Shown here: piece after piece, positions 3,015-40,286 of the stretch | How the letters are laid out: every line of letters begins with the position of its first letter | How positions within the stretch are numbered: the first letter of the stretch is position 1 | From: Obelidium mucronatum | Taxonomy: Eukaryota > Chytridiomycota > Chytridiomycetes > Chytridiales > Chytriomycetaceae | NCBI GenBank assembly: GCA_025765595.1 | Contig: JAIVFH010000018.1 | Coordinates: 298,501-362,500 of the forward strand | Direction of reading: 5' to 3' | DNA: 64,000 bases | The notes under the pieces: model-generated | Database searches by the model: none | What the model was told of the DNA's origin: nothing | What the model saw: only the letters and a program-made list of their open reading frames with translations | Position numbers and translations under genes: made by a program

Positions 3015-5379
<2,365 letters not shown>

Positions 5380-6803: not shown

Positions 6804-8129
6804 TTACTCCTCCAATTGAGTTGCAGCTAGAGATTGCGCCCAGTCAAACAAGTTGCAGCCATCTGCTTCTGCATTTATGCAACACTGGTGCTCTAGCAAC
6901 ACATTTGGCTCAGGTCGATCGGTATGGTCCTTGATTACACTTGTGAAAAATGAAGGCATGAAGGATAAGTAAACTCTCGGAGAGGAAAGAAAAAAAGAGA
7001 GATTCATTGGTGGTAGGGGAATTTGGAAAATTCACCGCCTTTGACGGTAGGGTCTCAGCCGTTTAAGGCCGACCGTAAGCGGCAGTAGAAGCACCAGTAT
7101 GCACTCACCACAAAGCCACTAAATCTTCAAAATCTTTCCCAAACTTTCCAGCTGGCAAAGAGGGAGCAGGTCTCTCTTTGATGCAAGTAATCAAATCAAA
7201 TAAACTAACGCCGGCTTCGCTGTATGGAAATAAACCCGTAGCAATTTCCATGAGCGTGAGACCCAAACTCCAAACATCGCTGACAACACCATAGATTTGA
7301 CCACTATCGATTCGTTCTGGCGCCAAGTAACCTTGAGTTCCAGTAAAAGTTCTAGCTTGAGTGTTAACTAGTTCTTTGCTGACACCAAAATCGGCAATTT
7401 TGATTTGTCCTTGAGAGTTGAGGAGGAGATTGCTTGGCTTGATGTCTGCAAAATTAAGGGAAAGTCTCATGAATTCAAAGTCCATGGCATTCAATCATGG
7501 CACAAGAGAGTTTAAAGAGGAAACTTTTGCTCTAACCTCGATGGACAATGTTTTCTTGCTGAAGGTACACAAGCCCTTTCAAAGTTCTGACGGCAATCTT
7601 TGCAACATACTCCTCTTTGATTGGACCCCATGTCTTGTATACATTATCCAGCGAGCCCAGATCCATGTATTCCATGACGACATTGACGCCGCCTTCCGAA
7701 ATGTATGCGCCAAACGAGCTGACAATGTATTCTGAGCGGCACTTGAACAAGCACTTGAGCTCGTTCTTGAGGTTTCGCTCGGCCTTCTTGCGGTCCTGTT
7801 CGGCATCGACATTGACGCTCAGATGCTAGAGGCGAGGGAGAATTCAGTGTTTCAGCTTGGCGATCGATCGGCGCACACCACAACACACACACGCCCACCT
7901 TGCGCGCCATCACGGCGCCAGACGGCAGATGCACCACTTTCGCCACGGAGCCGCCCGCGCCGTGGCCCAGCTCCTCGCAGAACTGCAGGTCGTCGTCGCG
8001 GAACTTGAGCTCGCCCTCGGGCACAAACAGCGGCGTCTGCGTGCGCATCAGCGTGCCGGCGGTGCCCGGCCCGGCGCGGATGGCGATGCCGAGCTTGAGC
8101 TTGAGGTTGTGGTTGGGCGGTGCCTGCAT
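6804..8129 (-). CDS. MAP kinase kinase (MAPKK)
   Basis: Exons 8129-7899, 7825-7537, 7445-7109 and 6939-6804 give 330 aa from the ATG at 8129. Kinase motifs: glycine loop 'ELGHGAGGSV', lysine in 'VMARKHL', 'IVHRDIKPSNLLLN', 'IADFGVSKEL', and an activation segment with paired Thr ('NTQART') before 'FTGTQGYLAPER'. The late 'SDVWSLGLTLMEIATG' is characteristic of MAPKKs (Ste7/Pbs2/Mkk group). An alternative first exon at 8232-8176 (starting 'MDSSTVAATAAAATSG') splices in frame with a good GTGAGC donor and would add 17 residues, but it would overlap exon 1 of the ERD1-like gene on the other strand. The long third intron (6940-7108) holds GC-rich hairpins. Which MAPK pathway it serves cannot be read from the sequence. 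Confidence 0.87.
7033..7084. repeat. GC-rich hairpin cluster in MAPKK intron
   Basis: Three short inverted repeats lie in a row inside intron 6940-7108: accg-cctttga-cggt, gcc-gtttaa-ggc and gccg-accgtaag-cggc (approximate arms). They stand out from the A/T-rich intron and resemble the hairpins at 18070, 30344, 32156-32224 and 60215-60255. Confidence 0.55.
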
Positions 8130-16895: not shown

Positions 16896-19800
16896 ATGAG
16901 GGACAAAGACCAGCCTGGCTCGGACGCCAGCGCCACCAACAACAACAGCAGCAACAACAACAACAACAACAGCAACAGCAACAGCAGCAACGCGGCGAGG
17001 AAGAAGGCGGGCGGCGCAACCACGGCGACGGCGACGGCGACGGCGGCGGCGCTGCTGTACGGCGTGCCGGGCTACGTGTGCACGGAGGTTGTGTACGCGT
17101 CGTCGGCACGCGCGGTCGACGTGGTGATCCAGCGCGGCTACTCGCTGGCGGACGCGCGCGTGAAGGTGATCTGCAAGGGCGCCGGCGTGCTCGACGAGGC
17201 CGCAAACAGGCGCATCGAGCACGAGTACGAGACGCTGCGCTTCCTGTACGCGAAGGCCGCCGCCGCCGTGCGCGTGTCCGAGGCCGCGCCGCCGGGCGCC
17301 AGCGGCGCAAGCAGCAGCAGCAACCACAACCACTCGTTCATCCCGCGGCCCATCGAGATTGTCAAGGACCGCGGGATCTGGACGCTGGTCGTTGAAGACG
17401 TCGGCGGGTGCAGTCTGCGGAAGTTCCAGGACCTGTTTCGGCAGCCGCCATCGACAGCAATGTCAGTGTCAGCATCATCGCCGTCATCGTCCCTGCGGAA
17501 ACTGCCTCTCGAGACCATCCTGCATATTGCTATTCAAATTGTAGAGGCGCTGAAACTGACAATCACTGCCGGCGTCATCCACAAGGACATCAATCCAGAT
17601 AATATTGTTGTTGTTCCGCTACCGAACGACCAACTGGCTGTCCAACTGATTGATTTTAACCTTGCCTCCATCACCGTTACAAATGATTCTTCCACAAACG
17701 ATAGCAATATTCTTCAAGGAACAATGGCCTATATGGCCCCAGGTTTTTTTTTTTTTTTCGTTTCCTTCTTGGGTTTTCACTGGACGTGTATTGAAGCCCC
17801 ACACCTTTTTTTTTTCTAGAGCAAACTGGAAGGTTACAGCGAAATACAGATTTTAGATCAGGTAACTCAAAAAATTAACTCAAAATATTTTGAACCTTTT
17901 TTGTTATTTCTTATTTGTCTGGGTTTTTAACTTTGTTTTCACTGCAGACTTTTATAGTTTGGGTGTTACCCTGTGGGAAATTGTGGTTGGGAGGCCAGCA
18001 TTTCACTTTAATGATGTCATGGTACTGATTGATTTTTAATGTCCTTCTTTACTGCCGAAAGGCCAACCCCACCACCAAAGGCGGTTTATCTCTCACTCTC
18101 AGGATCACCCGCACATTCCCATTACAAAACAAAAAAAAAACTAACCATCCAAAACATTGATATTTAGGAATACATGCACGCTCATATCGCAATCGAAATC
18201 GAACCTCCGGCGAAAGTGGATCCAACAGTCCCTGAAACCCTCTCCGAAATCATTCAAAAACTCGTTAAAAAATCACCTGAAGCGCGGTATCAATCAATCT
18301 ATGGCTTGAAATACGATTTGATGGCATGTCTCAAAACAATCATGAGATTTAAAAAGGCTCAGCGAATTCCGGCCGACCAGATTCTGACAGACCAAGACGT
18401 TCTAAAGGCGTTCATGATGCCTCTTTCGGATGATGGTGATGGTGGCGGGGTTGTTACCATGGAAAAGTTTGAAATTGGAACCAAGGACTGCTCCAAAACT
18501 GTTCATATCCCGAAAGGGAAACTCTATGGACGAAACTCTGAACAAGAAATGTTGTTGGGTCATGTGGAAAGAATTCTAGAAAACTCCTCAGGAGATTTAA
18601 CCAATTTTATTCTTGTTGTTGGAGAACGAGGGATGGGAAATAATTCTCTGTTGGGTGTTGCAAGGGCGAAAGTTGTTGCATCTGGCAACTTCTGCAGTAT
18701 GCGACCTTTTTTTTGTTAATTTTTACACTTGTAACTTAGTCACTAATGATCTCTTTTTTTTGAATTCTATTTCCCCAGTTACTGGTGCATACACAGAAGG
18801 ATGTCTACCTCTTCAAGGATTGGTGCAGGCATTGCAACAATTTATTGGAATTCTCCTTTCATCGCAAACTGAAATCTTGGAATCATATGTGGCCAAGTTA
18901 AAGCAGAACCTGGGTGTAGAAATATCCCGCTTGGAAACTGTTATTCCAGACCTCCGACTTCTTTTTACAACAAACTACAGTATATATACTGAAGACAAAG
19001 TGCACAAGGCAACTTATCCCGAAATGGTTGCTGATGTGACAAAGATCTTTAAAGTAATTGCTGGTTGCGATAAAGCGATTGTCTTGTGTTTGAAAGATAT
19101 CGAGGTTGGTTTCTTTAGATTCAGAGCTTTTTTTTACTTCTTGTTGGGTTTGATAACACATTTTAAATTTCCCACCAGTCCGCTGATGAAGAATCGTTCA
19201 CAGTGCTGGCTTGCCTGGCGAATTTTTCGAGCAGGTTCCTTGTTATCCTCACTTCATCAGAACCCGAAACAATATCCCCATTGGTTGCAAACTCACTACA
19301 AAACGTGCTTGACATACACAGCAAAAACTTTCACCTCTTCACCTTAAAGCCCCTCACCATCTTTGATATTCAAGAACTTCTTGAAGACACTGTCACGCCC
19401 TCTTTAGCGCCATTACACAACTTGGCAGCCCTGATTGAACGCAAAACCTTTGGAACACCCGCCTATGTGCACCAGTTTTTACTGAAAGCGGAAGCAAAAG
19501 GATTGTTATGGTTTGACGAAGATGAAGTTGAATGTGGATGGAATTGGGATATTGCCACATTGGATAAGAATATTGACGTTAGCGAGAGCGTTCTGAAGGA
19601 TATGACAAAGAGGATTAATGCCTTGTCCAAGGAATCTAAAGATGTTTTGGAGAAGGCTGGTATGTTTGTTGTTGTTATTTTTTATTTTTTATTTTTATTT
19701 TTTTATTTTTATTTTTTGTTGACATTGTTTTTTTTTTTTTTTTTTTTTTTTTTTTCGCGTCGAATTAGTGTGCATTGGTGCCAACTTTGACGTTCGGCTA

Positions 19801-22800
19801 CTCTCATTACTATTGAACCAAAAGACAGCCGTTACAACAAATATGCTGTGGGACTTTTTGAAGGCTGGGTTCATTAAGCCTGTACCGTTTTTGGAGTCAA
19901 AAGGACCCTGGAAAGATGTAGTGTTGGATGGTTTTGCTGCTAATCCTGAAGGCGCTGTTATTGAGTACAAGGTATATGAGTGTGCGGGTGTGTGTGTGGG
20001 GTGTGGTGGCGTACTAAGGGATATGTCTTTTACTAACCCGTTTTTTTTTAAGTTCGCATTCGACGTGGTATACAAGGAAATCTACGAGTCACTGGGCGAA
20101 TTGACGCTTGGCGTAAACCATTTAAAAATTGCCAGAATTCTGCACTCCATTGCGACATCCAAAGGACTTGTAGGTCAAGAAATCGTAATCTGCAAACATT
20201 ACAATTTAGCGAGACCTGTATCTCTTGGAGCTGAAGAAAACCACTTGATTGCTACGTTGAACTTGATTGCTGCAGAGCAAGCCATGTCAATATGCGACTT
20301 TGACAACGCCAAGGAGATGCTGACACATGGAACCAAGATTGTAGCCGTCCAAACAAGCAATGATCCTTGGTCTGGATCCTCGGCGTCCTTGTACTTTAAC
20401 CTGAACCTGCTGTTGGCAAAGTGTTTGATTGTCGATGGAGAGTTGGAGGAGGCAAAGTCGTTGTTGAGAATGATGGAACGTCACTCGAAAAGCAACAAGT
20501 CCCATATATACAAGGTGTTTTACTTGCAGCGTCATTTGGATGCCATGTTTGGCGATTTTAATGCCGTATTGACGGAAGGGTTGTCGAATCTGAAGGAGCT
20601 TGGGATCCAGATACCTACCACTGGTCAAGAATGTGAGCAGATGGCCTTGGGGCTGAGGTCGAAATGTCAGAGTCTTATTGATGAATTGGGGGTTGCTAAG
20701 CTTTTGGCGGTTGGGAAACATGCTAATGAGGAGTGTGATATGATTCAGGCTATTGTGTTGATTGTTTCTTTTGCTGCGAGTCGGATTTCTTGTAAATTCT
20801 TTTTCTCTTGCTTGATTGCGATTGTGAGTTGTTTTTTTTTTTTATTTGTTTTGCATTATTATTTTGTGACTGTTGACGTTTTATTATATGTTAAGGGATG
20901 CCATCGCAGCTTGACTGATGGGTTTGGGCGATCTTCCAGTGCTTTATGGACTGCGTATCCTTGCCTTCACTTTTACCTGTCGGGCGGTAACAGATTCAGT
21001 GCCATCAAAGTATCCCAACAAATGGCTGATGGAATCAATGCCATATTTGTCGACAAATCAGCCGAGTTTGAGGTTATTTACAAGACGTCCTGTGGTCACT
21101 CTATCCACTTGTCTATCCATCAAAAGATTGAAATGATGGAAGCACTCATTCAAAATGCCCGGCATTCTGGCCACAACCTGTCAATGAATTTCCTATCACC
21201 ATTACTGATTGTGATGGGAATGATGAGTGGGAGGTCCGCAAGCTGGCTCAAGACTACCATTACAAACCAACGTGAGATTTTGGAGCTTTCTCAATCCCAA
21301 AGCATCCCTACGATTGACTTGCTTTCCGATATGGTGGACGCGTTCATGTCGGGGGAAGCCCCACAACCAAGAGGTCAACTGCTTTGTCAAGTTCTGGCTG
21401 TTTTCCAGGCTTTGGTGTATGAAAAACCAGAAATGAGGAGTCTCCATGCACAGCTTCATGAAGGCGATAGATGTGTGCCGATTGATAAGACGGCTGATTT
21501 CTTTTTTGTGGAAGCGATGGCCCATGTGTTGGACTATGATGCAACACCAGGAGAGAAGGAAAAACAAGGTATCGAGGCCAAACTTGTCCAACTACTTGCT
21601 ACATTGGAATCACATACGCAGCATGGATTCAAAGACACGTTGGGCAAGAAGGATTTAGTTCTTGCAGAGTATGCCCGAATTAAAGGAAAGACTGTAGATG
21701 CAATCAAGCTTTATGAGTCTGCGATTGAGACGTTTAAAAGTGAAGGGTCTGTTTTGTTTGAGGCTTTTACGTTGGAAAAGTTTGCAATGTTTTGGCATAA
21801 TTCTGGGATGAAGAAGATGGCAAAAATGTGTTTTATTGAGTCTGCGAATAAGTGGGGAGAGTATGGGTCGAATGGGAAGCGAGTTCAAGTTGCTAGCAAA
21901 TTCAAGATTTTGTATGGCGCGGCCGACTTTGCGGAGATGGAGGCAGCGAGTACGTTTCATCGAACGTCGCCTACAAGGCAACTCGTCTTGGATCCGTCGC
22001 TTGGAAACAGGAAGGGTGGCACTTATTCCCCGTCTGGCTCTTCCTCTATTAGTAGAAGTGTTTGTCAGTCTTCTCGGTTTGGGGATTCTCAAACGACGAA
22101 TGGAACGGTTAGCTTGGATGTTGATGCTACCACTGCATTGAAAGTGGCTCAAAGTATTCGTGAAGAGATCTCGCTGGATGCCTTGTTGCGTAAAATCATG
22201 AAGTACGTGATGGTGAACACTGGAGCCACGAAAGGCGCACTCGTGTTGAACGACTCTTCACGTTTGATGATTGAGGCTATTGCAGAGTTCAATGATAACA
22301 AGGAAGTGATTGAAGTGCTTCAAAGCCATCCAGTGACGGCCCAAGTACCTGGATTCCGGTTGCCACTCAGTGTTATTTACTACACTTTCCGAACGCGCAA
22401 GTCCATTGTTTTGACTGAACCCAGCAATGATCCGACACATGGGGGGGATGCGTATATCAAGGAATTTATGCCTCAAAGTATTTTGTGCTGCCCAATCATC
22501 AATCAATCAAGTGTGACTGGTGTGGTGTACTTGGAAAACAAGCTTCAAGGGGCGGCGTTCACGCCAAAGCGAATTGAAATCATTCAATCGTTGATGCCAA
22601 CTGCTTCCGTGTACATTAAGAATGCAAAGCTGACCAAGACGAATGTAGAGTTGACGGAAGCTCTCAAAGACTCTGGGAATGCTTCAAATGCTCCAAAGTA
22701 CAAGATTGACGCGCCTGTTCAGCGTGCAATCGATATTTTGCAGTCGCTGAAGGGGAGAATGGTTGCTCAGGGAGATCCTGCAGTTCGTCAGATTGATTTT

Positions 22801-24847
22801 ATCATGATGTCTTTGACTTCTTCTGACTTGTTCATGTCCTCCATTGATGAAATCAATGATGAGAATGGTCGCGGGATTGATCAAGACACCAAGAATTGGA
22901 TTGAAAATTCTCTGCTGCAGAAAGCTTCCAAGCCATCTAAAGGTTCTGAAGTTGATGGAGACGCAATGTTTGTTGTTGGGAATCGTAGGCCTACCATTGT
23001 TAGCGCCTTGGATGAGGGAGGGTTTTCTTCCATGTTGCCATCTTCTGGGTCTCCTCATTTGTCGCCAAAGTTCTCGATTCAAAATCAAGAGGAAATCAAC
23101 GTTTTTCTTGAGAGCTCTATGGACTTTGAGTTTGATGTGTTTCGGCTTGGGGAACTTACCAATGGGCAGCCCTTGTACTACTTGTCCATGCATCTTTTGC
23201 AGTACTACGGACTCATTGAGCATTTCAACATTGATATCGATGTTGCAAAAACGTTCTTCCGTGAAGTCGAGTCGAATTACAGAGATCTCTCGTATCACAA
23301 CAGGTTCGTTGTTTTTTTCTTCTTTATTTTTTTGGTGAAGTGTGAAACTAATACGGTGTTGCTCAGCTACCACGCCGCTGACGTTTTACAAACAGTCAAT
23401 CTTTTGTTGCTCTCAGACCCTCAAATGGCTCAAAACTTTACAAAACTTGAAATTTTGGCGGCCTGCATTGCTTCTGCTGTCCACGACGTTGACCACCCCG
23501 GTGTCAATAACAACTACTTGATTCAAAGTTCTCATCCTTTGGCTATTTTGTATAATGATCTCTCTGTCCTTGAATACCATCACGCCAGCAAGGCATTTGA
23601 AATCATGCAAAAACCAGGAATGAACATTTTCGCGCACTTTCCAAACGACCAAAAACGAGATATCCGTAAGCAAATGATTAACATGGTCATTGCAACAGGT
23701 ATGTGGGGGTGGGGTTATTTATAATTTTGATTAAAATTCTTTTCGTATAGATATGTCGCAACACTTTACGTACATTAATAAGCTGAAAAGCAAAATTTCT
23801 GCGTCTGCGTTGAAGCTACAAGAAGCTCCTGATCGGGCTCTTGTCTTGGATATGGCCATTAAATGCGCAGATTTGAATAATCCAGCCAAGTCTCTTGAAT
23901 CATGCAAGCTGTGGGCGTTTAGAATTATGGAAGAGTTCTTCCAGCAGGTGTGTGTTTTTTTTTTGAGGAATTCGATTTAAAAGATTTTTTTGGAACTGAT
24001 GTTTTGCTTGCTCAGGGTGATCGAGAACGCCTGAACGGATTGAACGTTTCCATGTTCATGGATCGCAAAGAAACTAATATTCCAAAATGGTAAGCAGTTG
24101 ACAGGAGAGGGGAGGGGGGGGGGGGGGGGGGGGGTCGTCCCATCATTTTCCTAATCTCATTCATAATACAGCCAAGTGGGATTTGTTGATATCCTCGTCA
24201 CACCTTTGTTTGAAGCATGGTCACAATGTATTGCAACCGACTTTACAAGACTCTGTATGAAGAATATTTCCCTGAATCGAGCGTATTGGGAATCCATCTT
24301 GGACAAACCAGACGCCATTCCAACTTTTAACCCACCAGATTCGCAAGTACTCGAGCAAGAATTATTTGCGACAGTGGGAAGTCCAGCTACTCTTAAGAAA
24401 AAGCTCATCTCCATGCAAAAGAGTGGGAGCGAAACATCTGACTCCATTAAGCAGCGAACAAAAAGTAATGGCACTACGCAGAAGCCTAAAGTAGCCCCCA
24501 GTCCGCCAACTGCTTCAAAGATATCATCTGGGCCTATTTCAAAAAACTTCCAGAAGCCTGCTTTACGTCCGGAACCAACCCCAGTGAAACCGACAAGTTC
24601 AACGACAACATCAACAACATCAACAACAACAACAGCAACAACAACAGCTCAAACGAAGGGAGAAACTTTGGAAGGAAGTAATCGTGGTACTCTTTCGTTT
24701 AAGCAGGATGGAAAGCAGGTTCCAGTTACTCCTAGAATGGGGAGGCGGACTAGTGGAGTAGTGGATATGATTAATCCTGTCAAAGCATCACCAAACGCAA
24801 GAAACCTGCCGGAACTTCCAAAGCACGACTCATCGGGTGGGGTTTAA
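16896..24847 (+). CDS. Kinase-like / AAA-like / GAF / class I cyclic nucleotide phosphodiesterase fusion
   Basis: Thirteen exons: 16896-17742, 17820-17861, 17948-18021, 18168-18696, 18779-19104, 19179-19659, 19769-19971, 20053-20823, 20896-23303, 23367-23698, 23751-23947, 24016-24089 and 24172-24847, giving 2,319 aa. An Asn/Ala-rich N-terminus leads into a Ser/Thr-kinase-like domain ('HKDINPDN' near 229, 'IDFNLAS' near 253, 'GTMAYMAPEQTGRL'). An AAA-like ATPase plus helical region follows (about 420-1400). Its Walker A reads 'GERGMGNNS' near 473, without the usual lysine. A GAF domain lies at about 1515-1673. A complete PDEase_I domain (about 1820-2140) has HNSYH, 'HDVDHPGVNNN', 'KCADLNNP' and the purine-clamp glutamine in 'CQVGF'. 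The last 170 residues look disordered. The kinase-AAA-GAF order is that of fungal multidomain hybrid histidine kinases, but here a phosphodiesterase stands where the histidine kinase should be. It likely hydrolyses cAMP and/or cGMP. Confidence 0.85.
18070..18085. repeat. GC-rich hairpin in phosphodiesterase intron 3
   Basis: The imperfect inverted repeat acc-acc-aaa-ggc-ggt lies within intron 18022-18167. It matches the aaa-ggcggt half of the hairpin at 32213-32224. Confidence 0.45.
24112..24134 (+). repeat. Poly-G tract in intron
   Basis: An almost pure run of over 20 G lies in intron 24090-24171 of the phosphodiesterase gene. A similar G run lies at 63669-63695 in another intron. Confidence 0.8.
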
Positions 24848-25267: not shown

Positions 25268-28200
25268 TTATGATGGCTGCTGTCGCTGGAAGGTACCTAA
25301 TATTTCGATATCCCTCTGTTGTTTGGCGGCTTCCATTTGCAATTTGGCGTCTTTTTCTTTCTTGATCTTGGCCATCCGTTCCTCAAATACTATTTTTATT
25401 TTGAGAGCCATATCTTCGTACTATATTGTGGTGTTAATATTTCCATGTATTACTAATGTGGAAAAAGTTTTTTTGGTCACTCACGTCTTTCAAAATGGTT
25501 GAAAAATCAGAACGACCAAACGAATATAGAATCGTATTTCCTGCTGCAATAATAGTTGCGGTTCGAGGCATTTCTCCAAGCAACGCGACTTCGCCAAAGA
25601 ATGCCCCATCTCTGAGCTCGCCTACTCGATTCCCATTGACTATAATAGCAACACACCCTTGCTGAATAAAGTACATTTCATTTCCAACCTAAGTTACAAC
25701 TAGTTAGTTGTTTCTACGGATGTTTTTTTTTTTTTTTTTTTAGAATAACGCACCCATCCTTGATCAAAAATTAAATCGCCCTTGATAAAATATACTGGTC
25801 GCAATACTTTTGCGATACGTGCCAAAAAGAGAGAATCTCGTCCGTCTCCTACTTCTCTCTTCAAGAATGGAACTTTTGCAATGAGGTCTCGACAATTGTG
25901 AACCGCGATTTCCTATGTTGTTGTTATTGTTGTTCAATCGCGGTCTCCTCCATTAATCATTTCATACCTGTTTAAGCGACTCATTCATTTCACTCAAGAT
26001 GGCGTCTTCATCAAAGTACTTGCCCTTGTATTTCAACTCATAGTACTGTCTCACTTTAACTTTGATTGGCTCGCTTAATTTTCGGTATGTCATGTATTCA
26101 TGGACTTCGTCGATTTTCTCCTTGTACCGTCGACCTGACGAATCAAGCCCAAAACTGAAGGACGAAATAGTACCAACGAGTATAGCATACAAAACTGCCC
26201 CAACTAGTGCAGCTACTATTGAAAACACTTGTTCAAATGGATCTGAAGGTCTAGAAAAAGAAAAGAGAGAGAGAGAGATGGTGAAGTGTGTGTCAGAGGC
26301 TTGGGTGTTTTCTTTTTGTTTTCTTTTTTTTTTTTTGAACGAAAAAAGCAGTTGGACTCAACTGATATCCTGTAATTGGGAAAGTGTTTGCAACGGCAGC
26401 AAAATACGCCCAAATATATTGCTCTGACATTGGCACTTCAAGTACTTCATGAACAGCGCGCCAACTAGCAGAATCAAAATAAGCCAACTTTCCAAATAGG
26501 AATATGAAACATCCATGCAGATGCAAAAATGTAATCAGCACGCCTCCGAGCATAAATATACTCATGAAACTCGATCCAACTTTAAACGTCTTTTGCAAGA
26601 AATGAGAAATCGATACATAGATTGGGTTGTGATTGAAAATGTGCACTACATTTCGAACATGGAGTAATCGAAGAAGTAGTAGTGTGTCGGGGAAATTCAT
26701 GCGTCCAATACAAATGATATCAAATGGAACTGTCGCCACAAAGTCAAGAAGGAACGAGCTTGTAAGGTAGCGCAGAATATTCTTTTGAAGGTCAAGGGAT
26801 AGTGACAGTGTGACAAACTTCATGATTGTTGTGAACCCAAATATTCCTGTGAGGATTTGGGAGACCGGAGTTGATCGAACCGCTGTTTTTGAGAAAGACG
26901 CCACAACAGGAACTTCGAATAGGACACACATATATATAACTGTTTAGAAGAATAGGGTTAATACTCAATCATCATTCAATTTTTTTTTCATAATTTCATT
27001 ACTAGATAGAAGAAATTCCCAGATGACATTATATCGGGACAAAGGGTGGATTCCAGAATGTACAATTGGTGCATCGTTGTCTAATGCAGCCTTTCCAGCG
27101 TTCCCAAAATCATGATATGCTGGCTCAAAAAAGAGGAATTTGATGACAGATACGAAAATACTATCCTCAGCAGGCTCTGCCTTTGCAGGATCGTCATGTA
27201 TTGCAGCTGGCTCTACTGGCGGACCAATTGATCTTCCAGGATCAAGTTCATTCGTTGTTAGCGCTAAAACTAGCTCGTTGGATTGCTGGGGGGCCAGTGA
27301 CATCTCAGTTTGATATATTGATGAATGAATATTATCGCAAGTAGCTCCACCAGATACTGGAGGTAAATCTAATGTTTCATTATTATTTTTTTGGAGTGAA
27401 TTAGTTCAAGGTCTTTCATTTTTGGTAATTTTGCTCTCAAACCTCCTCCACTTTGTTCTGACTTGAACAAGTTTGGTACTTGGTTTCGAAGGAATGACGA
27501 CCTCCGACGAGACTTGGAACCCCTACCACTTTCGTCTTCGGGTATGCTCACCGCTGTTAATTCAAAGTAGTATACGCAATTTAAGTAGGAGGCGAAAAAA
27601 GAATATTTCATCTACCATATGGTTGGGGGGGCAAGCTGCTTCGTTGTTTTACACTTCGTGGGTATTCGGATATATTCGAATCACTTGATTTGTCTATTCC
27701 CAAAATAGTTGACTTGAGTGGTCAGCACAAAAGAATAAAGAACGAAGCGCAAGAACGAGAATAATACTTTTTAGCTCAATAATGTTATCTGGTTCTCCAA
27801 TTATCGCCGCAATAATGGAGCTACGCCGTCTCTTATCTTTATCACTAAATTTGCTGGATGTATCGAATCCCTTTGTTTTCGTAGGCGGTTTGATGCTTTT
27901 GGTCTCCAAGTTTTCTGCAGAAGCTATACTGTCGTCTGAGTAATCGGCGACTCTTTGTTTAAAAAAAAAAAAAACAAAGAACCAACCTTGAGATCCTAAA
28001 CTATTCCGAGAAGCCGCAACATCTCTTTCTCTTTTCTCTCTGTATTTCTTTGCAGCCGTTTCTATTGTGTCTGCAATCGATAGAGTAGATAGTTTTCCAA
28101 ACACGTCATTTGCACCAAGTCTTTGGCCAGCAACACTAGTTCTGAACCCACTCGTCGCACCACCACCACCACCACCAGCTCCATAAAATATAGAAGTATT

Positions 28201-33389: not shown

Positions 33390-35153
33390 CTACTCCAAGT
33401 ACACATATGAAGGCCTCTTTTGACGAATCACAACAAATACAAGAACAAGACAGCTGACAACAACAGCAATTGGGATATAACCAATGTCATGCAATTCAGA
33501 TACAAACTCGTTATTCAGTTCCACATTGTCGAGTGCAGGAAAAGCCCCAGTTTTTGATCGAATCTGAAGCAAATTTTTTTACGTTCCACATCAGTCATTT
33601 CAAGCAACGTCAAAAGTCAACCCATAGAAACAAAAAAAAAAACAACATACCCTCAGAACCCGGGATCCATGGGCAGGAATCGCACTCAATCGCATACTTC
33701 CAACAAATGTGCCCAACTCTTGCTTCAACCACAAGTCACGCGCCTCCACAACATAAGTTGCACTAGCAACAACATCTTCTTGAGTCACCGCGAAAACACC
33801 AAATTTGATATTCAAACTGACAGGAGTTTCGCCCGCATTCATCACCAAGAGAACACGATCCCCTCCCTCCAGCTCCCCAACCCATACCCATATCTTGTCG
33901 AGAATAGCGCGAACATGGGCACTTTTTCCAAGTGCATCTTGATTGATGGCGATTATTTCAGTGTTTCCAATGATTTCAAAGGTTTCTGGTGTCATGGATC
34001 GGATGTCGTGGCCAAGGAGTAGAGGGCTCTTGAGGGCGGCCCATACACTGAAGTGAGTGCGATATTCAATGTCAGTCATTTGTCCGTTTCCAACTTCCAA
34101 CATGTCCATGTCGTTGAAGCCTCCTGTTGATAAGGAGATTGTTAGAGTTTTTTTTTTCTTCATATTTGAGCGCCATCTCGTACCAGGGGCAGACCATTTC
34201 GATAAATGCCAATTTCTGTTGATGAGGTCTTGCACGCTTTCCCAGCTATCCCTAATGTTGCCCAATTTTTTTTAAGTTGATTTTAAGTTGCCAAACCAAA
34301 AAAAGATAAATTAAAGAAATAAAAAATAAAAAAAAATAAAAAGAAATTAGAAAACAAAAGGAGATAAACCCCATACCGAATATCTCCCGTAGTTCTCCAC
34401 GAATTCCCAAGAGGTTCTCCAAATTCCCAAATGGACGCTTCTCCCCAATTACAAATTGCATAGTTGATTGGACGGCCCGTCGCGTTCATGGCGTCTCGCA
34501 AGGCCCCATATCGGCTAATCGTGCCTCCCTTGTCACCCATTCCTTCGTTGTGGCAGTTATCGTACTTGAAGTAGTCGATTTGCCATTCGGCGTACCGTTG
34601 GGCATCCTGCTTTTCAAAGTGGAGACCTCCGGGTCGCATTTGGCATGTGTATGTTCCTGCGGATGAGTAGAGCCCAAATTTGAGACCCTTTGAGTGCACT
34701 TTTTTTTTTTTTTTTTTTTGTTTTGCAGGGTTTTTACAAGTCTTTTACTTTTCGAAATCACAATTGCAAAAAGGGAATGGTTTAAATACCGTAGTCTGAG
34801 AGAGCGCGTATTCCCGATGGAAATGCTTTTGGGTCTGCTTGGATAAACCCATCGCCATCGCGCGACAGTTGCCAGCAATCATCGATGTTAACATGGTTAT
34901 ATCCAAGTTCCGCGAGTCCTTTTAAATATGAATTGTTATATAATACATATTCTAGCTTTTTTTTTTTTTTTTTGATGGTGGGGTGGACGGTACCTGATGA
35001 AACAATGGCATCCGCGTGTTCTCTGATGAGTGCTTCGTTGATATTGCAATCAAACTTATTCCACGAGTTCCATCCCATGGCAGGTGTACGCCCGACGCCG
35101 TTGTTTAATGCGTACACTTGAGTGGCAGTAGAAATAAGGCCAAGCACAAGCAT
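33390..35153 (-). CDS. GH27 alpha-galactosidase with C-terminal membrane anchor
   Basis: Exons 35153-34994, 34918-34790, 34698-34377, 34251-34184, 34123-33651 and 33563-33390 give 441 aa. It hydrolyses terminal alpha-1,6-galactosyl residues (melibiose, raffinose, galactomannan). A short signal peptide ('MLVLGLISTATQVYA') precedes 'GRTPAMGWNSWNKFDC'. Active-site elements are present: nucleophile Asp in 'YFKYDNC', acid/base Asp in 'GFNDMDM', plus 'NIDDCW' and 'WAALKSPLLLGHDIR'. The beta-sandwich C-domain ends near 385. Unusually for GH27, it continues into one TM helix ('IPIAVVVSCLVLVFVVI') and a short basic tail, so the enzyme should stay at the cell surface. Confidence 0.9.
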
Positions 35154-35313
35154 TCTCTTTTTGTGGAGAAAAAAAATTTGACTAAATAAATAAAATAAAA
35201 AAGGATTTTTAAATGTGAAGGGGGAGTTTATCAACGCTTTATTCAAAAGTGAGCTCATAGCGAAAGAATAAAAAAACACACACACACAGAACGGGAAAGG
35301 AATCCGCTTTTTT

Positions 35314-36171
35314 TTAGAACATGGACAAAAGCAAGGCAACAACAGTGGTAGCAGTGACGGCCATCACACCGTTGGCACCGCTGTAGAGACCAGTGGAGGG
35401 TGGGGCAACGTAAGCCTTCTCAGTGGTAGCGGCAGCAGCAGTGGTGGTAGCAGAAGCAGCACCGTAGCTTGGAGCTGGACGGTTGTCCTTGAGCGTCTGT
35501 TGGAGAATTGACATGATTAACGCTCAATGTGATGTTAAAACCGCGAGCGAGTTAGCTCTAACTTACCAAGTCTCCGCACAAGTGGAAGATGGTGGGGCCA
35601 TCGTAGAGAACCATTTGGACAGTGACTGGAGCACCATCCTTGGCGCCTGGAACATTGGAGAAGTCGACTGGGACGGAAAAGTTTCCAGCAGAGAAGGTAG
35701 CGTTGGCACCCTTGTCGTTGATAAAGTACTTCTGGAATTGAGCGGCAGTTGGGTCGGTTTCAGAGACAACGGCAGAAATGTGGCCGGTTCCGTTGTGTCC
35801 GTAGTTTCCGTTGATAACTCCGCCAACTGAATAAAAAAAGGGTTTGTTTGTTTTTTTAACATCGGGATAGAAAGGGAGGAAGTAGAAATGGAAGGAGGAT
35901 GGTCGATGCTTGACTTACCGATTGGGAACTCGGTTCTGGCTCCAAGAGGAATGTTACCGCATGGAGAGATCAACTCTGGCTTTCCAGTTCCAGGGCGGAA
36001 CTTTGGAGAGTATACCTGCGCATTGTCATTCATTAGATCATTGTAAGGCGGCATAGATAAGGGAGCAACACTATTGCCGCCGGAGCAGCGCTTTGCAATC
36101 GGTAGGCAACTTACCTTGAAGTGGGCAGATACGGTGCTGATGAAGATAGCGAGGACAAGGAAGCCGTTCAT
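35314..36171 (-). CDS. BIM1/X325-like copper-binding, LPMO-related GPI protein
   Basis: Exons 36171-36115, 36015-35919, 35826-35567 and 35496-35314 give 198 aa. A signal peptide ('MNGFLVLAIFISTVSA') is followed directly by His ('HFKVYSPKFRPGTGKPEL'). A mature N-terminal His is the hallmark of the copper site in LPMOs and in the BIM1/X325 family, which serves copper acquisition rather than polysaccharide oxidation. Conserved-looking parts: 'SPCGNIPLGARTEFPIVGG', 'GHNGTGHISAVVSE' (second His candidate), 'VQMVLYDGPTIFHLCGDL'. An Ala/Thr-rich stalk and a hydrophobic tail ('GVMAVTATTVVALLLSMF') suggest a GPI anchor. It lies close to two iron permease genes, fitting a metal-uptake role. Confidence 0.8.
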
Positions 36172-37251: not shown

Positions 37252-38529
37252 TTAATGAGCAGCCTGGAAAGTTCCAACTGCTCCATTTCCTCTTGCAGCC
37301 TTGCGTTCTTTCAACTTCAGCACCACCAAAGCCACAGAGACAGTCAACCAAAACAAAATGTATGAAACAACAGTTCCAATGGTCGCGTTGTTTGTCCATC
37401 CAAAGATTGCTGAGAACATTTGCCATCCTCCTTGACTCTTGTCTTCAGGGTTACAGCATTCAATGTGCCTGAACCAAAAACAATTAGAATACAGCTAATA
37501 ATCACAAAATTACAAATACCCACCAAACGTTGGTGAAAATGTTGTAAAATACGGCATCATCGGAGTCCATGCTTCCAATAGCTTTGTTCCAGGTGTTGAT
37601 TTCAAACATGGCAACAGATTTCGACAAGAGGCCAGCAGCGAGGTATAACAATAAAATTGAGGCCGAAACGAAGAAGGTGTGCAGTTTCATACTGTTTCCT
37701 GCACGATAAATGGCATAGCCAATCAAACCACCACAGACGAGGCCAATAATTGCAGCAAGAGGAATGGATCCAGCTTCTTCTCCAATAGCAGTCTTGTTAA
37801 TTTATAAGAAATTGGTTATTATTCAGAATTTCGGCCAGAATTTGAGATTTTGTACTCACCCCACCCAAGAAGATCATTCCCTCCAGCCCCTCACGAACAA
37901 CAGTAACGAAGGGAACCCAAAACAATGGGCTTTTGAAGCTGAAGATTGCATTACTCCCGGCTTCTTCGAGCGCAGCTTTGGTCTTGCCCTCGTTGAGTGG
38001 CTGGCTTGTTATTTGTACGGCATTCTCATCCAGCTTTTTGTGTAGTTTCTTTTCCCATTTTGCAGTCAATTCGTCCGACTTCAGGAATCCATAGGCCATC
38101 ACAGTCAAGAGAACGCATGCAATGAGCATAAAGACTCCTTCCCAAATTGCCTCAGCTTGAGCCCTTTAAACCGAGGCTGTTAGAAATATGGCAGCCAAAA
38201 AGGCAAATGCTCTTTCTTACCATAAGTCAGTGGCATACTTCAATAGAATCACAAGGAAGGCGGTTCCAATTGCAAGGGACAAGACAACTCCCGCAACAGT
38301 TCCAAACCAAACAGATCTGCTCAATGTCTTTTGCATTCCAGCATCATGTCTGAACTTTGACTTGACAAACGAAAGAAGGACAGAGATAATGATGGAGGCT
38401 TCCGTGCATTCTGGTCGAAAACAAAGACAATGTTCAGATAACAAGCAAGCACGGACTTGCGAAATGATTTTTTTTTTAAAAACCTCGGAAGATCACAAAG
38501 AAGACGGGTAACGAGAATCCGACGGCCAT
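37252..38529 (-). CDS. FTR1: High-affinity iron permease FTR1 (copy 1)
   Basis: Exons 38529-38484, 38410-38221, 38163-37860, 37792-37524 and 37468-37252 give 341 aa. FTR1 moves Fe3+ across the plasma membrane, normally paired with a multicopper ferroxidase (Fet3), which is not in this window. Both iron-binding signatures are present: 'FFVIFRECTEASIIIS' in TM1 and 'VVREGLEGMIFLGG' in TM4. There are about seven TM spans. The conserved extracellular segment 'IECCNPE' lies near the C-terminus. The intron positions and phases equal those of copy 2. The gene lies downstream of copy 2 on the same strand, 460 bp from its stop. Confidence 0.93.
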
Positions 38530-38989
38530 TTTTTGAGTACTTGGTTTTTGAGACTGAATGATTTGAGGCAGATGGTATCGCTTGACTGGCTCTTTTTGTT
38601 TGCTTTTTGGGTTTCGGAACAAGCCCTCACAACAATTTTTTCCATCTGCTCTTTCATTGGTTCAACTGTTTCCGCACCAAGCAACTCTAAGCCCACGGAA
38701 CCAATGAGAAGAGAGGAGGAAAAGGATGCCTCACAATGACATGTGATCATACAAGGAGGATCAGATATGGCGTCTGGAAAAGGAACACGCAAATCGTCAA
38801 AGGTGGCAATCAAATTTAGGGATCGCATTTCCATTATTATATGAATGGTGTGGAAACAGTATAAACGCACAAAGCGGAAAAAGTACTTTTTCCCAGGAGA
38901 TTTTATTTAAGTTTTTTAAGAAGCATTCTTAATGAGGTAAAGAATAAAAATTATCGCACAAAGTCCTGTATACCCAGACTTCGCAGCTT
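38530..38989 (-). promoter_or_regulatory. Upstream region of FTR1 copy 1
   Basis: These 460 bp between the FTR1 copies hold the copy 2 3' end and the copy 1 promoter. An ORF of 125 codons (38870-38493) overlaps exon 1 in another frame and has no recognisable features. I do not see a clear HGATAR-type iron-repressor site; a GATA core occurs near 38762 (cagatatgg), without the flanking context. Confidence 0.35.
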
Positions 38990-40286
38990 TCATTCAGCTG
39001 CACGTGTGCTCTGTTTCGCACTGTTTCTTCGTTCCTTCAGCTTCAACACAACCAAGGTCACAGAGACAGCCAACCAAAACAATATGTATGAAACAATAGT
39101 TCCAATGGTCGCGTTGTTTGTCCATCCAAAGATTGCCGAGAACATTTGCCATCCTCCCTGGCTCTTATCTTCCGGGTTACAACATTCAATGTGCCTATCG
39201 AAATAACAAAAAAAAAAAAAAAAAAAAAAAAAATAAGCTCCGATACTTTCACATGAGGGCTTAAACATACCAAACATTGGTGAACACGTTATAAAACACG
39301 GCGTCATCCGAGTCCATACTTCCAATCGCCTTATTCCACGTGTTGATTTCGAACATGCCGACAGATTTCGACAAGAGGCCAGCAGCAAGGTAGAGCAAAA
39401 ATATTGAGGCCGAAATAAAAAAGGTATGTAGTTTCATGCTGTTTCCCGTTCGATAAATAGCGTATCCAATCAATGCCCCGCAAACAAGACCAGCAACAAC
39501 AGCTAACGGAATACTCCCAGCATCTGTGGTTACAGCGGTCTAGGAAAAAAACAAAAATGAAATTAAGCTAAAAATCAAATCAATTCAATTCAATTCAAAA
39601 GAAACACTCACCCCTCCCAAAAACACCATTCCCTCCAACCCTTCACGAACAACAGTGACGAAAGGAACCCAAAATAAAGGGCTCTTGAACCCGGCAAAAA
39701 AAGCGCCCATTCTAGACAGTGCTTCCTTTTCGCTTCCTGCGTTTGAGTCAAGCTGCTGTTGTTCACTGCCAGCTCCCAACTTTTTATGTAGCTTCTTCTC
39801 CCACTTTGCCGTCAATTCATCCGATTTCAGGAATCCAAAAGCCATCACAGTCAATAAAATACATGCAATGAGCATAAAGATTGCTTCCCACAATGCTTCT
39901 GCTTGTGCCCTTTCCCCCAACAAGTCAGTCTTGACGAAACAACGGGCACCCAAAAAACCATTTTCCAAAACTTACCACAAGTCAGTGGCATACTTGAAAA
40001 GCATAACCAAAAACACTGCTCCAATGGCAAGCGACAGAAAGAGTCCAAGACCAGTACCAAGCCAGACTGACCGACTCAAGACTTTCTGCATTCCTGAATC
40101 ATGGCTGAACTTGGATTTGACAAACGAGAGAAGCACGGAAATGATAATGGATGCTTCTGTGCATTCTGTTGTATGTGTGTTGGCAGGGTCAGTGGGGATG
40201 CAAACGGTTTCTGATTGATTGTCCAAGATTGTACACAGACCTCGGAGAATGACAAAGAAGATGGGTGGTGAGAATCCAATGGCCAT
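38990..40286 (-). CDS. FTR1: High-affinity iron permease FTR1 (copy 2)
   Basis: Exons 40286-40241, 40165-39976, 39909-39612, 39539-39271 and 39194-38990 give 335 aa. It has the same motifs as copy 1: 'FFVILRECTEASIIIS' and 'VVREGLEGMVFLGG', plus 'IECCNPEDKSQGGWQ'. Exons 1, 2 and 4 are identical in length to copy 1 (46, 190 and 269 nt). The cytosolic loop after TM3 differs most ('GAGSEQQQLDSNAGSEKE' against a shorter, different loop). The proteins are otherwise very similar, so this is a tandem duplication with divergence in loops. Intron 4 contains about 22 T on the coding strand (A-run on plus, 39209-39231). Confidence 0.93.

Follow-up and report, generated by a model that had tools for sequence, protein, structure and literature searches.

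A kinase-AAA-GAF scaffold joined to a class I cyclic nucleotide phosphodiesterase in Obelidium mucronatum and other chytrids

Introduction

A gene at 16896..24847 on the forward strand of a 64,000-nucleotide stretch of the chytrid Obelidium mucronatum (contig JAIVFH010000018.1, positions 298,501 to 362,500, assembly GCA_025765595.1; hereafter, the window) raises the question of what a phosphodiesterase (PDE) does at the end of a scaffold that, in fungal multidomain hybrid histidine kinases (PHKs), carries a histidine kinase. An earlier note on this DNA had recognized the layout and proposed that it would couple the scaffold directly to cyclic nucleotide breakdown. Here we show that the domain order and the catalytic residues are as they appeared, and that the layout recurs across Chytridiomycota. 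We consider it probable that the protein is a one-component intracellular sensor in which a histidine-kinase-type input scaffold, fused to a class I PDE, switches the breakdown of cyclic AMP (cAMP). We infer that the product is a single polypeptide in the cell and that a ligand sets its activity in one direction or the other.

Results

Gene model and domain order

With the splice sites read by hand, the gene consists of 13 exons with a coding length of 6960 nucleotides and encodes a protein of 2319 amino acids (aa), from the ATG at 16896 to the sole, terminal stop that ends at 24847. The 12 introns span 52-146 bases each, and all 12 have GT...AG borders. The annotated public protein BDR26DRAFT_1005825 (P0001, O. 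mucronatum, Chytridiales) is identical to this model (100% identity over 100% of the length), so that the public annotation agrees with it. The gene bounds and the exon 9 coordinates in the earlier note were exact, and its count of ten introns was two short. The features of the gene are as follows.

16896..24847, forward strand: whole gene, ATG to stop (13 exons, 2319 aa; identical annotated protein P0001)
17058..18374, forward strand: protein-kinase-like domain, about aa 55-390, exons 1-4 (Pfam; VICK, HKD, DFN and APE motifs)
18519..19232, forward strand: AAA_16 ATPase-like domain, aa 439-624 (Pfam; Walker A GERGMGNNS without the lysine)
19341..21972, forward strand: helical-repeat region, about aa 661-1450 (structure model and structure comparison)
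20896..23303, forward strand: exon 9, uninterrupted, 802 aa (end of the helical region, GAF, linker and first PDE residues)
22174..22611, forward strand: GAF domain, aa 1518-1663 (Pfam; structure comparison)
22618..22932, forward strand: signalling helix and linker, aa 1666-1770 (alignment conservation, model)
23293..24253, forward strand: PDEase_I catalytic domain, aa 1891-2122, exons 9-13 (Pfam; phmmer against PDB; alignment)
24254..24847, forward strand: end of the catalytic region, then a Ser/Thr-rich, low-complexity C-terminal tail (poorly conserved)

The domain search that the earlier note had proposed as a check yields the expected order: Pkinase (aa 145-363, E-value 1.1e-21), AAA_16 (439-624, 2.7e-10), the helical repeats, GAF (1518-1663, 2.7e-9) and PDEase_I (1891-2122, 5.6e-84). 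The kinase-AAA_16-GAF order of PHKs is thus present, and their HisKA and HATPase_c domains and C-terminal receiver are not: none of the three has a Pfam match up to E 0.1, in agreement with the earlier note, nor does Pfam detect a REC or PAS domain ahead of the catalytic domain. A hidden histidine kinase was considered and rejected on the same Pfam threshold. A missed histidine kinase or a second gene boundary was also sought in exon 9 and not found, this one exon encoding the GAF domain, the conserved linker and the start of the PDE.

The catalytic domain

The PDE motifs are YHNSYH (interrupted by intron 9), HDVDHPG (23482-23502), KCAD and KCQVGF. Residues were counted in a 27-row family alignment, over the rows with a letter at the given position. 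The metal ligands are invariant (His 1896, His 1933 and Asp 1934 in 26/26; Asp 2045 in 25/25) and the clamp glutamine is kept in all 20 rows that reach it, with a gap in P0017, P0018, P0020, P0022, P0023, P0123 and P0124. Elsewhere, the Asn of HN..H is replaced by Glu in one row and by Ser in one, and the second Asp of HDxDHPG by Asn in one. The window protein therefore combines PDEase_I, the metal ligands (HN..H, HD, D) and the clamp glutamine that make up the signature of class I cyclic nucleotide PDEs, and the complete enzyme that the earlier note placed after the GAF domain is borne out. P0017, P0123 and P0124 terminate in ...NIPKW, the end of exon 12 in the window gene, which suggests that their PDE is cut by reading through an unspliced intron 12.

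Among the best 60 of 151 matches to solved structures (phmmer against PDB), human PDE4D ranks first (1.5e-74), followed by other PDE4s, PDE7A, a protein entered as 'Phosphodiesterase' (6fg5, 6ezu), PDE8A and then PDE1 and PDE3. Because the catalytic domain is closest to the cAMP-specific PDE4/7, cAMP is the better guess, and, judging from the sequence, cAMP is most likely the substrate, with an enzyme of the high-affinity type. In the earlier proposal of cAMP/cGMP breakdown, the class I PDE stands, and cAMP rather than both nucleotides is to be preferred.

The kinase and AAA domains

For the scaffold, residues were counted over those of 24 family rows with a letter at the position, and 97 bacterial or unnamed relatives served for comparison. 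The kinase of the window protein keeps the K, D, N and D residues and has DFN in place of DFG. In the family, the beta-strand Lys is present in 22/22 rows, the HxD Asp in 23/23, the following Asn in 21/23 and the DFG Asp in 21/23; the third DFG position is Asn in 20/23, compared with Gly in 80, Ser in 11 and Ala in 6 of the 97 relatives. The position of the DFG Asp is occupied by Gly in 52 of these relatives and by Asp in 42, so that many of them are degraded kinases. The chytrid kinase is thus less degraded than many of its relatives, with DFN as a private mark; it may act on the linker as a kinase or do no more than bind ATP. In the ascomycete-type kinase-AAA pieces (among P0181-P0195 and P0200), HGE/HGD and NFG are found in 12/12 rows, so this kinase-like domain is probably catalytically dead, whereas the chytrid family mostly has HKD and DFN.

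The Walker A lysine position holds Lys in 19 of 23 family rows, Asn in two (Obelidium and Siphonaria), Arg in one and His in one, against Lys in 97/97 relatives; in the N-terminal piece P0134 from Physocladia, this lysine is also replaced by Asn. With GERGMGNNS, the window protein lacks the intact Walker A of a STAND or MalT-type P-loop, and the AAA domain of O. mucronatum is likely to be without ATPase activity. The AAA-like domain of the earlier note is an AAA_16 domain by Pfam, with the Walker A lysine absent in Obelidium.

The GAF domain, linker and helical region

The GAF domain (52%) and especially the linker (62%) are well conserved across the family, the linker nearly as much as the catalytic domain; the AAA and helical parts evolve fast. 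In structure comparisons, the GAF model resembles the GAF domains of PDE5, PDE10, PDE2 and Lcd1, and the helical part that falls within exon 9 (residues 1-356 of the model) is similar to several tetratricopeptide repeat (TPR)-type folds, MalT domain III being one of them. With a hidden Markov model (HMM) of the linker, weak matches were obtained at two other PDE loci of Obelidium (1.2e-5 and 0.001). Homology to the PDE8 linker was considered and rejected, the hmmsearch value being about 0.05 per domain in a nine-sequence set.

A family across Chytridiomycota

Two protein searches, one examined for its best 120 of 447 matches and the other yielding 34 matches, delineate among the matches listed a family of 27 chytrid records from 24 organisms, counted by name. 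By Pfam annotation, 21 of the 27 contain all four domains (kinase, AAA_16, GAF and PDE), a recurrence far beyond chance, and the order that the earlier note proposed to seek in other chytrid genomes is found in many of them; HisKA, HATPase or receiver domains are annotated in none of the 27. The remaining records are without an annotated AAA (P0003), kinase (P0016) or PDE (P0020), or have GAF and PDE only (P0004, P0021 and P0122). The 11 of 24 organisms that were looked up, one of them by genus, belong to Chytridiales, Spizellomycetales, Rhizophlyctidales, Lobulomycetales, Cladochytriales and Rhizophydiales, with Quaeritorhiza and Blyttiomyces incertae sedis.

The 34-match search collected PDE proteins of about 1275-4058 aa; the 25 with a kinase, AAA or GAF domain all come from named chytrids, and the other nine have none of these domains annotated. 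Batrachochytrium, Blastocladiomycota and Neocallimastigomycetes are not represented among the named matches of this search, in which five matches are nameless and which depends on shared words, so that absence from these groups is not proven. Entophlyctis helioformis has three family members (P0023, P0123 and P0124), each on a contig of 128172 bases, which may have arisen by triplication on the spot; several kinase motifs are gone from P0124.

Descent of the two halves

A 44-row tree of the PDE domain, for which eight Obelidium paralogues were assembled from their exon matches, separates all 27 rows of the family from the rest by a single branch (87/91; 94% of 200 bootstrap trees). Their neighbours are the scaffold-free protein P0125 and an Obelidium paralogue, C53 (91/85); long branches leave the deeper joins unsure. 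The family is also one group in a scaffold tree built by a quick method (27 family rows and 30 of the 97 bacterial or unnamed rows) and in a second scaffold tree (99/99) of 22 family, 12 ascomycete-type and 18 bacterial or unnamed rows, from which P0004, P0016, P0021, P0022, P0122 and P0124 were left out and to which P0134 was added. Three inner groups are common to the PDE and scaffold data: Obelidium-Siphonaria-Entophlyctis luteolus, Spizellomyces-Geranomyces-Powellomyces and Polyrhizophydium-E. helioformis. The family holds together in the PDE tree as well as in the scaffold trees, which suits a single old fusion within Chytridiomycota whose two halves have been passed on together. The second scaffold tree, which is unrooted, sorts its rows into three groups, namely the chytrid family, the ascomycete-type pieces (12 rows; P0191 is from Letrouitia) and the bacterial or unnamed relatives, and does not distinguish an origin of the scaffold in a fungal PHK from a bacterial one.

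No paralogous PHK was found in Obelidium with HMMs of the kinase, AAA-helical and GAF parts in 16 regions (eight HisKA places and eight other PDE loci); the same three-part HMMs do find the window gene, as well as other kinases in the window. A genome search with one bacterial relative, in which 26 of 98 first-look candidates were scored, gave a GAF match in the window gene only and kinase matches elsewhere, and no match to AAA or GAF lies near C35, the one strong kinase place that was looked at. These negatives hold at the sensitivity of the HMMs and searches used, at which intron-split domains may be missed.

An AAA-like match at G000:C3:252000-261900 (L054) adjoins cyclase-like sequence, possibly that of a soluble adenylyl cyclase; STAND-type ATPases may sit on both cAMP synthesis and cAMP breakdown in the Obelidium genome. 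A fusion of a cyclase with a PDE is seen in P0133, a long protein in which a class III cyclase, a PH domain and a PDE are annotated.

Neighbouring genes

Upstream of the PDE gene lies a TCP-1/cpn60 chaperonin gene. The downstream neighbour, at about 25485-27400 on the reverse strand and tail-to-tail with the PDE gene, is a gene for a channel of the hyperpolarization-activated cyclic nucleotide-gated/cyclic nucleotide-gated (HCN/CNG) kind, with S4-S6, a pore that reads FPITGY, a C-linker and a cyclic nucleotide-binding domain. It matches HCN1 in PDB (phmmer, 2.9e-31), and cNMP_binding matches the piece with the binding domain (1.2e-15), whose end is about 640 bases away from the stop codon of the PDE gene; Pfam gave no match on two single frames of the channel gene. 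A second-messenger enzyme thus adjoins a possible receptor for that messenger. The kinase HMM also matches frames at 3463-5376 (forward) and 7108-7825 (reverse), indicating further kinase genes in the window. Repeated reverse-strand frames with REGLEGM motifs at about 37797-40218 resemble FTR1-type iron permeases, perhaps in tandem copies, and the reverse-strand frames at 33600-35363 (GMGWNSWN-type motif) look alpha-galactosidase-like.

Discussion

Relation to known systems

In the pertinent passages on PHKs, Candida Chk1p (2471 aa) has the same order of N-terminal Ser/Thr-kinase-like, AAA_16 and GAF domains, and Mak2 and Mak3 of Schizosaccharomyces pombe match it less fully (PMC9069115, PMC5383687), in line with the earlier note; these proteins end in a histidine kinase and receiver, the chytrid protein in a PDE. 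The passages of a study of histidine kinases in early diverging fungi that bear on the subject do not mention a PDE-ended member (PMC5285503). The order of a fungal hybrid kinase scaffold stands, and the fungal label is too narrow because the scaffold is common to bacterial proteins: among the matches listed, bacterial or unnamed relatives share the kinase, AAA_16 and GAF domains at 24-29% identity. These carry HATPase (histidine kinase), SpoIIE, GGDEF, class III cyclase, sigma54 and other outputs on the same scaffold, and PDEase_I is in none of the 97 non-chytrid rows among the best 120 of 447 matches. The passages on the bacterial dual kinases describe cbSTKIII, with HstK, as kinase, GAF and HisKA, with no AAA mentioned there (PMC2176072; see also PMC1262709); the scaffold relatives may be these same proteins. 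The chytrid protein has kinase and GAF domains and no HisKA. Since the defining parts of neither PHKs nor HstK are all present, we do not file it under either; it would function as a sensor built along those lines but with a different output.

In the passages concerned, RegA of Dictyostelium and Acanthamoeba consists of a receiver and a PDE and is driven by separate histidine kinases (PMC3906536). Histidine-kinase-type sensing would likewise be directed at a class I cAMP PDE in the chytrid protein, but sensor and enzyme are predicted as one polypeptide there and Pfam finds no receiver ahead of the PDE. Animal PDE8 is described as REC-PAS-PDE in the passage concerned (PMC13095499); as in PDE8 and PDE4, the chytrid catalytic domain is of the PDE4/7/8 kind with a regulatory part upstream, which, unlike that of PDE8, has no REC or PAS by Pfam and only a weak linker match to insect PDE8. 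The GAF-PDEs (PDE2, 5, 6, 10 and 11) share the succession of GAF domain, long helix and catalytic domain, and the GAF fold matches. They differ from the chytrid protein, which has a single GAF without the NKFDE motif of GAF-PDEs, a catalytic domain of another PDE group and the additional kinase-AAA-helical half. No description of a kinase-AAA-GAF-PDE protein was found in the open-licence PMC literature, consistent with the impression in the earlier note that no such family had been described.

Weighing the explanations

Several observations weigh against the sensor-PDE reading. The clamp-glutamine stretch is absent from seven of the 27 rows, P0020 lacks most of the PDE, and P0002 is flagged UNVERIFIED_CONTAM by NCBI. 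The NKFDE motif is absent from the GAF domain in 27/27 rows, with Arg for Asp four residues past the Phe. The linker is modelled with a predicted local distance difference test score (pLDDT) of only about 50-70 and a predicted TM-score (pTM) of 0.48 for the model, its likeness to insect PDE8 is weak and no more than suggestive, and MalT is tied with other TPR folds in the comparison of the helical region. The choice of cAMP as substrate is drawn from similarity. If the enzyme were instead a cGMP or dual PDE, it could end a rhodopsin-guanylyl-cyclase signal in zoospores, working with the adjoining cyclic-nucleotide-gated channel. Rhodopsin guanylyl cyclases are described, in the passages at hand, in the related chytrid Rhizoclosmatium globosum (PMC7655827; for chytrid cGMP signalling, see also PMC4046227 and PMC12264004), the opposite-strand neighbour has a cyclic nucleotide-binding domain and the GAF model resembles GAFs of PDE5, PDE10, PDE2 and Lcd1, but the cAMP-specific PDE4, 7 and 8 rank first for the catalytic domain, and we regard this alternative as decidedly improbable. 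It is somewhat easier to imagine, though still unlikely, that the scaffold is a targeting or assembly platform only, with inert kinase and AAA domains and a constitutive PDE that the N-terminal half places at a cell site. The loss of the Walker A lysine to Asn in Obelidium, Siphonaria and P0134 and to Arg or His in two further rows, the Asn at the third DFG position and the fast evolution of the AAA and helical parts would suit such a platform; the retention of the catalytic Asp (23/23), the beta-strand Lys (22/22) and most Walker lysines (19/23), together with the conservation of the GAF domain and linker, argues otherwise.

Six chytrid records hold one half of the layout: P0004 (which stands for 20 member sequences), P0021 and P0122 have no annotated kinase or AAA, and P0134, P0135 and P0136, found with aa 55-834 as the query, are N-terminal pieces only. 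A contig end does not explain P0135 (Rhizoclosmatium globosum), which lies on a 389,915-base contig, and this record, like the 20 sequences that P0004 represents, counts against a single product. P0134 and P0136 run on into unrelated sequence and stop shortly beyond the point that corresponds to the end of exon 8. We attribute this to a splice that was missed, although these may conceivably be genuine alternative ends. Such records would be expected of a gene-prediction chimera of adjacent kinase-AAA and GAF-PDE genes, or of separate products made through an alternative end near exon 8, which we nonetheless consider very improbable: P0016, P0004 and P0021 begin at aa 373, 792 and 856 in window-protein numbering rather than at a shared start, P0136 is on a contig of only 3138 bases, the whole layout is predicted in 21 of the 27 records, and GAF and PDE are encoded in the same exon 9.

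Mechanism and implications

In the sensor-PDE that we prefer, a cytoplasmic signal would be read by the helical repeats, the GAF domain or both and would rearrange the scaffold; the rearrangement would be transmitted through the long post-GAF helix and the conserved linker, and the PDE active site would be freed or blocked, so that cAMP, and with it protein kinase A activity, would fall or rise with no His-Asp phosphorelay. In view of the varied outputs of its bacterial or unnamed relatives, we take the scaffold to be an input module whose output can be exchanged, in chytrids for a PDE that it would control. As to its history, we lean towards an ancient output swap in the chytrid lineage, by which a histidine-kinase scaffold became a direct, phosphorelay-free cAMP-PDE sensor with a dedicated, highly conserved coupling linker, kept across the phylum.

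To our knowledge, the biochemistry of the kinase-AAA-GAF scaffold itself is little known, and the isolated GAF-linker-PDE half would make the coupling testable in vitro. The scaffold would be an exchangeable input module in eukaryotes as it is in bacteria. Amoebae link histidine-kinase sensing to cAMP turnover by a relay that ends in RegA, and the chytrid protein would accomplish within a single polypeptide what takes several in the amoebae. If the PDE is indeed regulated, this would be a one-component shortcut present across a fungal phylum with flagellate zoospores.

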